NCBI GenBank assembly: GCA_022572465.1
Contig: JACZVV010000003.1
Coordinates: 1-63,458 of the forward strand
DNA from: Chloroflexota bacterium
GTDB taxonomy: Bacteria > Chloroflexota > Dehalococcoidia > SHYB01
Length of the DNA stretch: 63,458 nt
Reading direction: 5' to 3'
Part shown: positions 39,177 to 45,181 of the stretch, piece by piece
How positions within the stretch are numbered: position 1 is the first letter of the stretch
Layout: every line of letters starts with the position of its first letter
Translations under genes and position numbers: made by a program
The notes under the pieces: model-generated
Seen by the model: the letters and a program-made list of their open reading frames with translations, nothing else
Told to the model about the DNA's origin: nothing
The model's database searches: none

Positions 39177-40148
39177 TTACACCAGCGACTTGACCGCCGC
39201 GACCACGTCGCCGGGGCGCGGGATGGCCGCCTGTTCGAGGTCACGGTTGTAAGGCATCGGGACCTCCTGGCCGGCGACGCGGGCCACCGGCGCGTCGAGG
39301 TAGTCGAACGAATGCTCCATGATCGAGCTCACCACCTCCGCGCCAAAGCCCCCCGTCTTCCAGCCCTCCTCCACCACGACGGCCCGATTGGTCTTCATCA
39401 CCGACTCGTTGATCGTATCGGTGTCCAGGGGCCGCAACGAGCGCAGGTCGACGACCTCGGCCTCGATCCCCTCCTCGGCCAGCTCCTCCGCCGCCTGAAG
39501 GGCGACGTGGACCATCCGAAGGTGGGCGACGATGGTAACGTCCGAGCCCACGCGCTTGACGTCGGCTTCGCCGATGGGCACGGTGTAGTACTCGTCGGGC
39601 ACCGGCCCCCTGAAGTTGTAGAGGAGCGAATGCTCGACGAACATCACCGGGGTCTCTTCGGCTACGGCGCTCCTCAGAAGCCCGCAGGCGTCGTAGGGGG
39701 TTGAAGGAGAGACGACCTTGAGGCCGGGCACCTGGGCGTACCAGCCCTCCAGGCACTGGGAATGGCTGGCGCCGAGCTGGTTTCCGCCGCCGCTCACCGT
39801 GCGGATAATCAGTGGAACGGTGATCTGGCCTCCCGACATGAACAACATCTTGGCGGCGGCGTTCACGATCTGGTCCGAGGCCAGCAGACTGAAGTTGATC
39901 GTCATCAGCTCCACGATCGGCCGGAGGCCGCCCATGGCCGCGCCGATGCCGGCCCCCACCAGGACCGATTCGGCGATGGGCGAGTCCTTCACGCGCTGCT
40001 CGCCGAACTCGGCCAGGAGCCCTTGGGTGACGCCGTAGGCCCCCCCGTAGGCGCCGATATCCTCGCCCATGAGAAAGACGCGGTTGTCGTTGTTCAGCGC
40101 CTCTCGCAGGGTCTCACGGATAGCTTCTCGATACGTTAACTCTGGCAT
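39177..40148 (-). CDS. pdhB: Pyruvate dehydrogenase E1 component, beta subunit
   Basis: This 323-residue transketolase-like subunit begins MPELTYREAIRETLREAL. It has VFLMGEDIGAYGGAYGVT, the TPP-contact Glu region, and IAESVLVGAGIGAAMGG. It forms the alpha2-beta2 decarboxylase with PdhA. The start at ATG 40148 is chosen because it matches the family and sits 10 bp after pdhA; the open frame upstream overlaps pdhA and is not real. A branched-chain or acetoin substrate is possible but the context favours pyruvate. Confidence 0.94.
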   Translation of the reverse strand: MPELTYREAIRETLREALNNDNRVFLMGEDIGAYGGAYGVTQGLLAEFGEQRVKDSPIAESVLVGAGIGAAMGGLRPIVELMTINFSLLASDQIVNAAAKMLFMSGGQITVPLIIRTVSGGGNQLGASHSQCLEGWYAQVPGLKVVSPSTPYDACGLLRSAVAEETPVMFVEHSLLYNFRGPVPDEYYTVPIGEADVKRVGSDVTIVAHLRMVHVALQAAEELAEEGIEAEVVDLRSLRPLDTDTINESVMKTNRAVVVEEGWKTGGFGAEVVSSIMEHSFDYLDAPVARVAGQEVPMPYNRDLEQAAIPRPGDVVAAVKSLV

Positions 40149-40158
40149 AGCGTAGGGC

Positions 40159-41142
40159 TCACTCCCGGTAGATATCCTTGAACATTTCGTCGTGGGCCGG
40201 ATTGGGGCTGGCATCCGCGAAGGCCACGGCCTCGGCGATCTCCTCGTCCACGCTGTGCTCGATCTTGGCGATATTCTCCTCCGAGGCGGCCCGGCTTTGG
40301 AGCAGCTCTCGACGGAAAGTGACCACGGGGTCGCGGCGTTTCCATTCTTGCTCTTCTTCTTTATCTCGATACGCCACGGGATCGGCCATGGAGTGCCCCC
40401 GGAACCGATAGGTGATGGCCTCCAGGAAGAAGGGACCCTTGCCAGAGCGGACGTGGTTGATGGCGCGAATGGCGGCCTCGCGCACCGCAAGGACATCCAT
40501 CCCGTCCACCATCTCGCTCGGGATGCCAAAGGCGTCGGCCAGGTGGCACATCTCTTTGCCGGCGTGGGCCCGCTTGACGGAGGTGCCCATGCCGAAGCCG
40601 TTGTTCTCCAGAAGAAAGAGCACCGGCAGGTTCCAGAGCGCCGCGAGGTTGAAGGACTCGTGAAACTCGCCTTCGTTCACGGCGCCGTCGCCGAAGATGC
40701 ACAGGCAGATGCGTCCTTCGTCCCGGTAGTTGCTGGCCAGGGCCAGTCCGGTGGCGATGGGCATCATGGCGCCGACGATGGCGTAGCCGCCCATGAATCC
40801 CTTGGAGGCGTCGAACAGGTGCATCGAGCCGCCCTTGCCCTTGCTGGTGCCGGTGGCCTTGCCGAACAGCTCGGCCATGATGCGCCGGGTCTCCAGGCCC
40901 CGGGCCAGGGCGTGCCCATGCTCGCGGTAGTGGGTGACGATGTAGTCGCGCGGCTCCAGCGGAGGGATGGTGCCCACGGCGACCGCCTCCTCACCGATGT
41001 ACAGGTGGAGAAAGCCGCCGATCTTCGCCCGCCCGTACATTTCGCTGGCCTTCTCTTCGAACCGGCGTATCAGGACCATCTTGCGATACAGATCCAGGGC
41101 GACCGGTTTCTTGATCGCAAGCTCTTTCAACGTCATGGCCAT
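40159..41142 (-). CDS. pdhA: Pyruvate dehydrogenase E1 component, alpha subunit
   Basis: This 327-residue TPP-dependent decarboxylase subunit has the TPP/Mg motif GDGAVNEGEFHESFNLAA followed by LFLLENNGFGMGT. It also contains GKGGSMHLFDASKGFMGG and YRFRGHSMADP, the phosphorylation-loop region of E1 alpha. GGGAGG precedes ATG 41142. Together with pdhB, pdhC and lpd it forms a full 2-oxoacid dehydrogenase complex that makes acetyl-CoA from pyruvate. Confidence 0.95.
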   Translation of the reverse strand: MAMTLKELAIKKPVALDLYRKMVLIRRFEEKASEMYGRAKIGGFLHLYIGEEAVAVGTIPPLEPRDYIVTHYREHGHALARGLETRRIMAELFGKATGTSKGKGGSMHLFDASKGFMGGYAIVGAMMPIATGLALASNYRDEGRICLCIFGDGAVNEGEFHESFNLAALWNLPVLFLLENNGFGMGTSVKRAHAGKEMCHLADAFGIPSEMVDGMDVLAVREAAIRAINHVRSGKGPFFLEAITYRFRGHSMADPVAYRDKEEEQEWKRRDPVVTFRRELLQSRAASEENIAKIEHSVDEEIAEAVAFADASPNPAHDEMFKDIYRE

Positions 41143-41172
41143 GGTGGGCCTCCCAGGTAAGCAAGCATCGAT

Positions 41173-42558
41173 TTAGACGTTCAGCGATTCTCCTATGGCG
41201 CCCAGCCCCGCTTCCATCAGGGCCTCCGACATGGTGGGATGAGCGTGCACCGTCTTGCCCAACTCGCGAACGGTGCCCTCCAACATACGGGCCATCGAAA
41301 GCTCGGCGAGCAGCTCGGTCACGTCGTGCCCGATCAGGTGGGCGCCCAGAATCTCGCCGTGCTTCGCGTCGGCCACGATCTTGACGAAACCCTCGCTGTC
41401 GCCCAGGGCTACCGCCTTGCCGTTGGCCGAGAAGGGGAACTTGCCGATCTTGACCTCGTGTCCCCGCTCTTGGGCCGCCCGCTCCGTCAGGCCCATGCTG
41501 GCTACCTGAGGTTGGCAATAGGTGGCCCTGGGCATGTCTTCGTAGGCCAGCGGCGGAGGCTCGCGGCCGGCGATCGCCTCAACGGCGGTCACGCCTTGCG
41601 CCGACGCCACGTGGGCCAGAAGCATTTTGCCGGTGACGTCGCCGATGGCATAGACCCCGGCGACGTTGGTCTCCATGCGGTCGTCGATCTTGACGAAGCC
41701 GCGGTCCGTCTCCACGCCCAGCTCCTCCAGGCCGATGTCGCCGGAGTTGGGTTCGACTCCCACGCCCAGGAGCACCGTATCGCATTCCACCTCTCCGCCC
41801 TCGCCCGCCGGGCCCAGGGTCAGCTTGACGCGCCCGTTGACCCGTTCCGTCCTCTCGACGGTGAAACCGGCTTTGACCGCGATCCCCTGGCGGGACAAGG
41901 CCCTTTCCAGCTGTCTGCTGATCTCCTCGTCCTCGGTAGGCAGCAGATGGGGCAGCATCTCGATGATCGATACTTCGGACCCATAGGCCCGGTAGTAGTA
42001 GGCAAACTCGACACCGACGGCGCCGCCGCCGATGATGGCGATCGAACCTGGCGGCTCTCGAAGCTCCAGGGCCTCCCGGCTGGTGATGATCGTCGAGCCG
42101 TCCGCCTCGAGGCCCGGCAGGTCCTTGGCCCGGGCGCCCGTGGCGATGATGACGCTCTTCGCCTTCAATCGCTGCCCGTCGCCATCGATGACGACCTCGC
42201 CGGGGCCGGTCAGCCGGCCGGTGCCGCGGACCAGGTCGATCTTGTTCTTCTTGAAGAGATACGCGACACCCTTGACCATCTTCTGGACGACCTTGCGGCT
42301 GCGATCGACGGCGGCCCCCAGGTCGTACTGGAGATTGTCGTAGGTGATGCCGAACTCGCCGGCCCGGCGGAACAATCGGAGGACCTCGGCGCTGCGAAGC
42401 AGGGCCTTGCTGGGGATGCAGCCCCAGTTCAGACAGACGCCGCCGAGCTGGTCGCGCTCCACCACCGCGGTCTTCAAACCAAGCTGGGCGGCCCGGATAG
42501 CGGCGGTATAACCGCCGGGCCCGCCGCCGAGGAGCACCAGGTCGTAGTCGTTAGCCAA
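41173..42558 (-). CDS. lpdA: Dihydrolipoyl dehydrogenase (E3)
   Basis: This 461-residue flavoprotein reoxidises dihydrolipoamide with NAD+. The FAD motif GGGPGGYTAA is at residues 11-20, the redox disulfide C42/C47 is in GGVCLNWGCIPSK, the NAD-binding motif is GGGAVGVEFAYYYRAYG, and the catalytic HAHPTMSE near the C-terminus includes the active-site His. It overlaps lipA by 8 nt and is followed by pdhA after 30 bp, so translation with lipA is probably coupled. Confidence 0.96.
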   Translation of the reverse strand: MANDYDLVLLGGGPGGYTAAIRAAQLGLKTAVVERDQLGGVCLNWGCIPSKALLRSAEVLRLFRRAGEFGITYDNLQYDLGAAVDRSRKVVQKMVKGVAYLFKKNKIDLVRGTGRLTGPGEVVIDGDGQRLKAKSVIIATGARAKDLPGLEADGSTIITSREALELREPPGSIAIIGGGAVGVEFAYYYRAYGSEVSIIEMLPHLLPTEDEEISRQLERALSRQGIAVKAGFTVERTERVNGRVKLTLGPAGEGGEVECDTVLLGVGVEPNSGDIGLEELGVETDRGFVKIDDRMETNVAGVYAIGDVTGKMLLAHVASAQGVTAVEAIAGREPPPLAYEDMPRATYCQPQVASMGLTERAAQERGHEVKIGKFPFSANGKAVALGDSEGFVKIVADAKHGEILGAHLIGHDVTELLAELSMARMLEGTVRELGKTVHAHPTMSEALMEAGLGAIGESLNV

Positions 42559-43447
42559 CCAACGTCCTCTCTCGCTCGCCGGGAGGAGTGGCGACGTGCT
42601 CGTGGGCGTGGTAGGAGCTGCGGACCAGAGGGCCCGACTCCACGTGCCGGAATCCCATGGCCAGTCCCTGGCGCTTCAGCTCGGCGAACTCGTCGGGATG
42701 GTAGAAACGGTCGATGGCGATGTGCTTCGGCGAAGGCTTCAAATACTGGCCGATCGTCAGCACGTCGCATCCGGCCTCGCGGACGTCGAACATCGTCTCC
42801 AGGACCTCGTCCTTGGTTTCACCCATGCCGAGGATGATCCCCGATTTGGTCACCATCTCGGGCTCCCACTCCTTGACCTGGGCCAGAAGCTCCACGGAGC
42901 GCTGGTAGGAACCCTTGGGACGCACTCGTGGGAACAATCGGGCGACGCTCTCGATGTTGTGGTTCAGCACGTCCGGCGCCGCATCGACGACGGTCCGCAA
43001 GGCCTCTCGCGAGCCGGCGAAGTCGGGGATGAGCACCTCGACGGCGCAGCCGGGCGCTCGGGACCGGATGCGGCGGATGGTGGACGCAAAAACAGCGGCC
43101 CCGCCGTCGGGCAGATCGTCCCGATTGACGGAGGTGACCACGGCGTGGCGGAGGCCCAGCGTGTGGACCGCGCCGGCGACGCGCTCCGGCTCGCCCAAAT
43201 CGAGGCCGTGAGGCCGGCCGCTGGTGACGGCGCAGTAGGCGCAGGCCCGGGTGCAGACGTCGCCCAGGATCAGGAACGTGGCCGTGCCGTACTCCCAGCA
43301 CTCGCCCATGTTGGGGCAGCGAGCCTCTTCGCAGATGGTGTGGAGCTTCTCCTGCCGCACCAGCCGCTTCAACTTGACATAGTTATCCCCGCCGGGAAAG
43401 CGGACCTTGAACCACGGAGGCAGTCTGCGTTGAATCTCGGCGCTCAT
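42551..43447 (-). CDS. lipA: Lipoyl synthase
   Basis: This radical SAM enzyme inserts two sulfurs into octanoyl groups on E2. Both cluster sets are present: CEEARCPNMGEC (C39, C44, C50, auxiliary cluster) and CTRACAYC (C65, C69, C72, radical SAM). The protein has 298 residues from ATG 43447; a GTG three codons earlier is possible. It is the first gene of the pdh operon, tying cofactor synthesis to the complex that needs it. LipB or LplA is not in the window. Confidence 0.96.
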   Translation of the reverse strand: MSAEIQRRLPPWFKVRFPGGDNYVKLKRLVRQEKLHTICEEARCPNMGECWEYGTATFLILGDVCTRACAYCAVTSGRPHGLDLGEPERVAGAVHTLGLRHAVVTSVNRDDLPDGGAAVFASTIRRIRSRAPGCAVEVLIPDFAGSREALRTVVDAAPDVLNHNIESVARLFPRVRPKGSYQRSVELLAQVKEWEPEMVTKSGIILGMGETKDEVLETMFDVREAGCDVLTIGQYLKPSPKHIAIDRFYHPDEFAELKRQGLAMGFRHVESGPLVRSSYHAHEHVATPPGERERTLVG

Positions 43448-43493
43448 CGCTCTCACGCCATCGAAACCAACAAAGCTTAACTTCTATGATAAA

Positions 43494-43702: not shown

Positions 43703-45181
43703 CTACTCCGCCTCGTCGCGCAGGCGGATGTATCTGATGAGCCGCGGATGCACGTTTTCAATGTGCCTGTGCATCTGTCGTGCCAATTCTTGGATCGTGA
43801 AATGTGCTTGACTCGACAGCCTGAGTTTCAGGAGATGGTAACATTCGCGGAGATTCAGTTTTGCGAGTGTCCGGGTCATATGGGCATGAGTTACCAAGTA
43901 ACGAGCAACCGAGGGATGAACTTTCTCAACCTGGCGGAAAGCGTGATCCGTCTTCTTAATGGCTTCACGAAAAAGCCGACCTGCACCCGCCCTTTCGATC
44001 AATCGAGGGACGAGGTGTCCATACCGCGCATTAAGCGGTTGCGAAAGGGTTGTTTGCATGCGATGGCGCTTGTATTCACGGTAGGCCCCGTAGTCCATCT
44101 CGAGCTCAAACAGATAATCGATGTTTTCCAGCTCCCTCAAGGGGGGATCGAAATCACCAAGACCGCTCAGCGCCATGTCAATCAATTCGGTTTTCTGCCG
44201 CTCGCTCATTCGACGTACTGAATACTCCACTCGCTTGTAGGGCCTACCGGAAACGCGGTAAAGCAAGGCTTCCACTAGCCGATCCACGGCAGAACGATCG
44301 AAATAGACGAGAGTCGCCTTTACCTGCGCGACATCAACTTCGGTTCCTAAAGAATCGAACGAGAGTTGCGATCCGTTGTTGTCCGATTCTTTCTCGATGG
44401 AATTCCAAAACCTCTCCCGTCGCTTCCGATCAAAAGCCCACTGATTCTTCTGTGCGCCGATGAAATATTCGCTGTCCTCCGCGTACTTGACCAGCGTCGG
44501 TGCGATCTTTCGTCCCTCCGCTCGGAGCCGCTTCCCGATTTCGCGGCTCTCGGCCAGCTCCGAGCTCAGCAGCTTGGTGATGGCATGCTCCAGCGACCGC
44601 GCGTTCATGGTGACGCCCACGTTGGTCAGGGTGGCGGCGGGCAGGACGAAGCGGCAGCTATCGGTGGCCTCACGCCGGATGCGCAGGTTGTAGGCCCCGT
44701 CCCGCTCGCCCTCCCGCTGTGGGTGCTGGGACTTCAGGTACGCCTGAGTCTTCTCCAGCAGGGCGTGATACGTCTCGAACAGGAAGTCGCAGGTCTCGGT
44801 GAAGGTCCGCTCCAGCTCGTGGCCGCGAAGCTCGGCGGGGACGTGGTAGCTGCCCCGCTCCAGCACCTGGTAGCGGGACGACTTCTCGGTGAAGGACGCC
44901 AGGCGGTTGTCCTCCAACTCATCGCACGCGAGACGGGAGATATTCTCCACCGCCATGTGGATGACGGCGTGCTCGGCCACCGAGGCGTGGCCGTAGCCCA
45001 CCACCCACTTCTCGTTGAAGTCGGCCGCCTTGGCCTCGGTGACCCGTTCCTTGATCTCGTCGAAAGCCTCGGGGCTTCGAGAGGTCATGGCGAAGATGAC
45101 GGCGATCTGCTCCTGGGTCAGCTCCTGGGGGTCCAGGGGGTAGACCCGCATCTCGTGGGCGGTCCGGTGCGTGGTGGTCAT
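43703..45181 (-). CDS. Tandem two-domain ThyX-like protein (alternative thymidylate synthase family)
   Basis: This 492-residue protein carries two ThyX-related domains. Domain 1 (about 60-230) has GHASVAEH, SFTEKSSRY and LPAATLTNVGVTMNARSLEH, but its QxxRHR position reads ELEDNR. Domain 2 (about 285-480) has KRHRMQTTLSQPLNARYG and LNLRECYHLLKLR, keeping RHR but with the Ser-rich part altered. Classical ThyX is about 220-250 residues and homotetrameric. The DNA for domain 2 is about 50% GC, whereas that for domain 1 is about 65-68%. Start: ATG 45181. FAD-dependent dUMP methylation is likely for the family but not certain here. Confidence 0.8.
   Translation of the reverse strand: MTTTHRTAHEMRVYPLDPQELTQEQIAVIFAMTSRSPEAFDEIKERVTEAKAADFNEKWVVGYGHASVAEHAVIHMAVENISRLACDELEDNRLASFTEKSSRYQVLERGSYHVPAELRGHELERTFTETCDFLFETYHALLEKTQAYLKSQHPQREGERDGAYNLRIRREATDSCRFVLPAATLTNVGVTMNARSLEHAITKLLSSELAESREIGKRLRAEGRKIAPTLVKYAEDSEYFIGAQKNQWAFDRKRRERFWNSIEKESDNNGSQLSFDSLGTEVDVAQVKATLVYFDRSAVDRLVEALLYRVSGRPYKRVEYSVRRMSERQKTELIDMALSGLGDFDPPLRELENIDYLFELEMDYGAYREYKRHRMQTTLSQPLNARYGHLVPRLIERAGAGRLFREAIKKTDHAFRQVEKVHPSVARYLVTHAHMTRTLAKLNLRECYHLLKLRLSSQAHFTIQELARQMHRHIENVHPRLIRYIRLRDEAE

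Follow-up and report, generated by a model that had tools for sequence, protein, structure and literature searches.

A two-domain ThyX of a Chloroflexota bacterium with active-site residues divided between its fused halves, probably a homodimer that mimics the tetramer of ordinary ThyX

Introduction

The classical ThyX proteins of T. maritima (TM0449), M. tuberculosis and H. pylori are homotetramers with four identical active sites, each of which is shared by three subunits. The chain-by-chain contacts have been described for the M. tuberculosis and H. pylori enzymes (PMC6514825). In the M. tuberculosis site subunit A supplies the RHR triplet at residues 95-97 and Arg199 (R78-H79-R80 and R174 in T. 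maritima), subunit B supplies Ser71 and Arg190 (T55 and R165 in T. maritima), and subunit C supplies the backbone of Gln103, Arg87, Ser105, Arg107 and the lid residue Tyr108 (PMC6514825); the T. maritima equivalents used here for the C-role residues are E86, S88, R90 and Y91. R174 serves in dUMP activation in ThyX, and mutants of S88, R90 and Y91 are slow in methylene transfer (PMC8316439).

A domain duplication in the ThyX of most Chloroflexi, where it is the sole thymidylate synthase, was reported by Valas and Bourne (2009) for a protein that was then uncharacterised; the report gives no residue analysis, split site or mechanism (PMC3224940). The protein in question almost certainly belongs to the same family as the fusion described here. 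This was the only account found in a literature search for tandem, fused or duplicated ThyX (subscription papers were outside its scope), and no description of a split site was found in that search. The architecture was thus already known; the split-site mechanism, the strictness of the residue partition and the breadth of its occurrence appear to be new.

Two further systems are close in some respects. The atypical ThyX of Corynebacterium glutamicum (3fnn, 3ge9) resembles the fusion in having the ThyX fold with unusual features, but it is a single-domain protein which, according to its title, the host does not need for making thymidylate; in the genome of the fusion no other synthase was found. 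The ThyX of Thermus was considered as a two-domain relative and rejected, the solved protein (6j61, 270 aa) being single-domain with an extra C-terminal domain. Bimodular QueF consists of two fused, complementary, degenerate halves. It shares with the fusion the principle of a fused homo-oligomer with divided site residues, but its fold and chemistry are unrelated and the likeness is one of analogy only.

Sequence sets and numbering

The gene was identified in a window of 63,458 nucleotides, the whole stretch of DNA analysed (contig JACZVV010000003.1 of assembly GCA_022572465.1, a draft genome of 83% completeness). Two-domain ThyX sequences were collected from 400 Chloroflexota genomes (128 of which matched at E <= 1e-20), from plasmids and from one phage, and gave an alignment set of 115 full-length two-domain proteins. 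A second set comprised 39 proteins from viral contigs, for a total of n = 154. Residues are numbered according to T. maritima ThyX (checked against the sequence of PDB 1kq4) unless the residue is that of the window's protein, and D1 and D2 denote domains 1 and 2.

Gene and domain architecture

The open reading frame begins with an ATG at position 45181 of the minus strand and encodes 492 residues. The Pfam model Thy1 (PF02511) matched it in two stretches (E 1.8e-50, 171.8 bits, cut-off 24.8), and the protein also scored above the cut-off of the thyX model TIGR02170 (101.8 against 87.9 bits). A full-length AlphaFold2 model built from an alignment of 53 relatives had a mean pLDDT of 91.2 and a pTM of 0.88, with confident relative placement of the domains. 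D1 modelled alone was superimposed on M. tuberculosis ThyX (3gwc) with Z 16.7 and an rmsd of 3.5 A over 205 residues, and D2 on T. maritima ThyX (1o26) with Z 17.8 and an rmsd of 2.3 A over 193 residues. Judged by these superpositions each half is a complete ThyX fold, the fold common to the classical enzymes, at only ~14% identity between D1 and D2. The features are listed in Table 1.

Table 1. Features of the two-domain thyX gene and its protein; coordinates refer to the window. Tm, T. maritima; Mtb, M. tuberculosis.
Feature	Position	Strand	Evidence
Two-domain ThyX, 492 aa + stop	43703..45181	-	ORF and translation, PF02511 in two stretches, TIGR02170 above cut-off, AlphaFold2 model
Domain 1, residues 17-245, B- and C-role residues	44447..45133	-	D1 model vs 3gwc
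Linker, residues 246-283, helix then low-confidence loop	44333..44446	-	pLDDT 56-78 at residues 241-290 of the full-length model
Domain 2, residues 284-492, A-role residues	43706..44332	-	Superposition on 1o26
Domain 1 motif DNRLASFTEKSSRY, residues 91-104; R78/H79 lost, E86/S88/R90/Y91 present	44870..44911	-	Translation, homologue alignment
Ser67 (= Tm Thr55, Mtb Ser71; B role), domain 1	44981..44983	-	Ser in 115/115 homologues
Arg177 (= Tm Arg147), domain 1	44651..44653	-	Arg in 115/115 homologues
Domain 2 RHR, residues 372-374 (= Tm R78 H79 R80; A role)	44060..44068	-	R and H in 115/115, R80 in 113/115
Arg454 (= Tm Arg174, dUMP activation; A role), in domain 2 only	43820..43822	-	Arg in 114/114

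Third-position GC within thyX changes from ~0.92 in codons 1-200 to ~0.5-0.6 in codons 250-492 (window positions 43703-44480); in two close relatives (L036 and L040) it is, by contrast, even along the gene. Directly downstream, at 39177-43456 on the same strand, the translations look like two pyruvate dehydrogenase E1 subunits, a dihydrolipoamide dehydrogenase and a lipoyl synthase.

Division of the active-site residues between the domains

The motif region of D1 reads ELEDNRLASFTEKSSRY; it is without R78 and H79 and has R80, S83, E86, S88, R90 and Y91. That of D2 reads YKRHRMQTTLSQPLNARYG, in which RHR is present (stretch YKRHRMQTTLSQPLNARY) and the half containing S88, R90 and Y91 is gone. 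An intact RHRxxSxxxxSxR, the rule of thumb for classical ThyX, thus occurs in neither domain, D1 having its second half and D2 its first. Across the whole protein the set of FAD and dUMP ligands is complete, with R78, H79, R80 and R174 in D2 and S55, E86, S88, R90, Y91 and R147 in D1, the same FAD, dUMP and activation residues that classical ThyX has. As read from the sequence, the FAD ligands are shared out between the domains and not lost. Profile matches, fold and ligands therefore place the fusion in the ThyX family, yet it breaks the rule of one intact motif per domain, which weakens the case for calling it a classical ThyX.

The original prediction of a two-domain ThyX with complementary loss of the signature motif was borne out by the two PF02511 stretches, both folds and the motif readings, as was its statement that the two domains jointly carry one full set. 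Some details need amending. D1 was said to have lost RHR and kept the second half of the motif, which is correct for R78 and H79 and for the second half, but Arg80 is still there and occurs in both domains. D2 does have RHR and a degenerate second half, but its 'ARY', which we considered as a remnant of R90-Y91, was rejected because its register does not fit and relatives do not share it. The loss of Arg174 from D1, which the prediction did not mention, adds to the division. Finally, the alignment it had proposed, of both domains to ThyX and to other long ThyX-like proteins, showed that the ligands divide along chain lines in 152/154 proteins.

The partition is strict among the 115 aligned homologues. 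D1 has retained Ser55, E/Q86, S88, R90 and R147 in all 115 and Tyr91 in 112 (Phe in the other three). R78 and H79 are missing from almost every D1, and R174 from essentially every one. Leu or Met stands at D1 position 174 in the ungapped alignment, a register-sensitive reading, as MAFFT can, by opening one gap, shift onto it the K/R found at the adjacent position 173 in 113/115 D1s. In D2 the retained residues are R78 and H79 (115/115 each), R80 (113/115) and R174 (114/114 readable sequences), and S55, E86, S88, R90 and Y91 are lost, as is R147 in most. The viral-contig proteins (n = 39; 22-45% identity to the query) follow the same division: S88, R90 and R147 each occur in 39/39 D1s, and R78, H79 and R174 in 39/39 D2s. 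The RHR count of this set is not fully independent because one of the two patterns used to collect it contains RHR; the D1 counts and the R174 count are independent of that pattern. A joint set of S/T55, S88, R90, R147, R78, H79 and R174 was complete in 152 of the 154 proteins (the exceptions being one masked residue and one T55N), and the full A set was found in none of the 154 D1s.

An alignment of 53 rows examined without regard to function had 18 invariant columns, which were dominated by ligand residues: S34 (= S30), S67 (= T55), S101 (= S88), R103 (= R90), R177 (= R147), R372-H373-R374 and R454 (= R174). Eight contact residues are present in one domain only; all three A-role residues among them are in D2 and all five B- or C-role residues are in D1, a sorting expected once in 56 under random assignment; with its recurrence in the 154 homologues, this puts the pattern beyond chance. 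The partition is not total, as R165 (B role) and R80 (A role) occur in both domains, and the contact made by Arg87 in M. tuberculosis is present in only ~41% of D1s. In one clade (L103-L105 and L108) D1 has RHR (QHR in L104) together with S88 and R90, but is without Arg174, and this clade may perhaps represent an intermediate state in the division of the site.

Further variation was seen at several positions. His53, which contacts folate and flavin in T. maritima, corresponds to residue 65 in D1 of the window's protein (44987-44989). Asp occupies this position in 56/115 members, mostly the longer forms of 516-663 aa, and catalysis may therefore be tuned differently in those members; the T. maritima enzyme carrying an H53D mutation has been crystallised (4kar, 4kas). 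In proteins encoded on plasmids of the Bacillus group and on related viral contigs (L145, L146, L153, L154, L157-L161, L164 and L167), D2 has RHN in place of RHR (Arg80 to Asn). Two arginines of D2 that are outside the classical ligand set, Arg349 at the Thr55 position (44135-44137; 113/115) and Arg437 (43871-43873; 113/114), hardly vary across the 115 aligned proteins, most of which come from Chloroflexota, and Arg349 is not retained in viral members.

A proposed split-site dimer

In a tetramer with 222 symmetry the subunits at one site are A, its partner B by one dyad and its partner C by another, and the third dyad relates B to C. With D2 as A and D1 as both B and C, the third dyad would become the true twofold of a homodimer, so that the geometry is consistent. 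We consider it very probable that the protein is a ThyX with active-site residues divided between two fused domains, most likely functioning as such a homodimer, a pseudo-tetramer that copies the 222 symmetry of ordinary ThyX. Two of the four pseudo-sites per dimer would be live. In each of these D2 would provide RHR (FAD phosphate and flavin) and Arg174 (dUMP activation) in the A role, D1 of one chain would provide Ser55 in the B role, and D1 of the other chain the dUMP-binding loop E86-S88-R90-Y91 in the C role; R147 would likewise come from D1 only. The other two pseudo-sites, left with only R80 and R165 as the ligands common to both domains, would be dead. Since the dead sites would need A from D1 and B and C from D2, the losses would be harmless where they fall. 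Where classical ThyX is a tetramer with four identical sites, the fusion is thus predicted to be a dimer in which two sites are live and two are dead, with its ligands split by domain.

The chemistry would be that of ThyX, in which the methylene of CH2-folate is passed via flavin N5 to dUMP with NADPH as the reductant; the product would be THF, and DHFR would hence not be needed. A grouping of A- and C-role residues in one domain would contradict the proposal, and the sequences appear to contain no such grouping. A site formed within one D1-D2 pair was rejected, because B and C are both in D1 and two chains are involved under 222 symmetry; three domains from two chains would make up each site and the working unit would be the dimer, not the single chain. 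The idea put forward in the original prediction, that a pseudo-symmetric fusion assembles one site from two degenerate halves, is supported by the division of residues along the published chain lines but has to be extended to two chains.

It is conceivable, though rather unlikely, that the two vacated sites of each dimer have been reused, for example as an allosteric pocket for a nucleotide or reductant, which would make the protein a half-of-sites ThyX with built-in regulation; the suggestion comes from the new D2 residues fixed in Chloroflexota (Arg349 and Arg437). The idea that Arg349 generally plugs the dead site was considered and dropped, as viral members do not retain this residue.

Thymidylate synthases in the host genomes

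Profile searches of the window's genome, 83% complete, returned no other Thy1 match, no ThyA above the cut-off and no DHFR; the best match to the ThyA model PF00303 scored 10.6 bits (cut-off 24.3) and was on a different contig. Among 78 genomes with the fusion, 75 had no match to ThyA and the other three had weak or partial matches (29-53 bits); among the 69 with a completeness of 90% or more and a contamination of 5% or less, ThyA was absent in 66. No separate single-domain ThyX occurred among the Thy1 matches listed for the fusion genomes, all of which were long two-domain frames except one cut by a contig end; in two genomes (G085 and G133) there is a third Thy1 match beyond those listed. 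The synthesis of dTMP is essential and, to our knowledge, is accomplished de novo only by ThyA and ThyX. In the absence of another synthase the fusion should therefore be active in most of its carriers, and in the window's genome it is most likely still working and the cell's only source of thymidylate. A classical thyX or thyA elsewhere in the genome, together with loss of the FAD ligands, had been named beforehand as evidence against a functional split site; neither gene was found in the 83% complete genome, and the ligands are divided. The other ground named for refutation, modelling in which neither half could contribute to a common site, did not arise either.

Alternative interpretations

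If D1 alone were catalytic, as a homotetramer in which R80 and the basic residue at position 173 stand in for RHR and R174, D2 would be a structural or regulatory copy. The better conservation of D1 (68-70% identity to the nearest relatives, against 45-48% for D2) would fit this, as would the dUMP loop and R80 in D1 and the K/R beside position 174 in 113/115 sequences. R78 and H79 are however gone from nearly all D1s and Leu or Met stands at R174, whereas in D2 R78, H79 and R174 are invariant in 154 proteins despite fast divergence elsewhere. A purely structural copy would not conserve these residues, and we regard catalysis by D1 alone as very unlikely.

We also weighed that the protein might not be a thymidylate synthase at all but a degenerate or repurposed homologue, such as a uracil methylase or a nucleotide binder, with the real synthase encoded in the missing 17% of a genome that is 83% complete; PolB (4p5a/4p5b) is indeed a ThyX homologue with other pyrimidine substrates. 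This is highly improbable given that 66/69 good-quality fusion genomes are without ThyA and no single-domain ThyX was among the matches listed, that the substrate and flavin ligands are all present once the domains are combined, and that the gene adjoins a dCMP deaminase gene in phage Tunturi_5. The fall in third-position GC from ~0.92 to ~0.55 in the second half of the gene might suggest an assembly chimera, a pseudogene or a chance likeness of motifs, but all 492 codons are open, the architecture is shared with more than 100 further genomes, plasmids and phages, and the columns of ligand residues do not vary. As D1 and D2 are moreover closest to the same genomes, a chimera or domain swap was rejected, and we attach next to no weight to any explanation of this kind.

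Implications

Since every site of ordinary ThyX draws on three subunits of the homotetramer, one role can hardly be altered without altering all four sites. The split-site fusion would separate these roles, with flavin holding and dUMP activation in one domain and dUMP binding and lid closing in the other. Each role would then occur once per live site and could be mutated separately, and cooperation between sites would become testable. In most carrier genomes no other thymidylate synthase was found, and the fusion also occurs on plasmids of the Bacillus group and of actinobacteria and in large phages, so that a large branch of this essential enzyme family, a drug target, is still uncharacterised. 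The fusion is also a warning for annotation software that relies on finding a single intact motif in each protein.

Distribution and origin

The two-domain form was present in about a third of the Chloroflexota genomes sampled, and the nearest named relatives of the window's protein were Chloroflexota MAGs. It was also found in plasmid records of Bacillus, Paenibacillus, Miltoncostaea, Euzebya and Parabacteroides, under the plain annotation FAD-dependent thymidylate synthase; phage Tunturi_5 has it too. In a quick tree of the domains, which has some long branches, the D1s formed one group (SH-aLRT 99) and the D2s another (100), and the family therefore probably goes back to a single fusion event. 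One genome (G162) has two different two-domain thyX genes on separate contigs (C10 and C4; L096 and L097).
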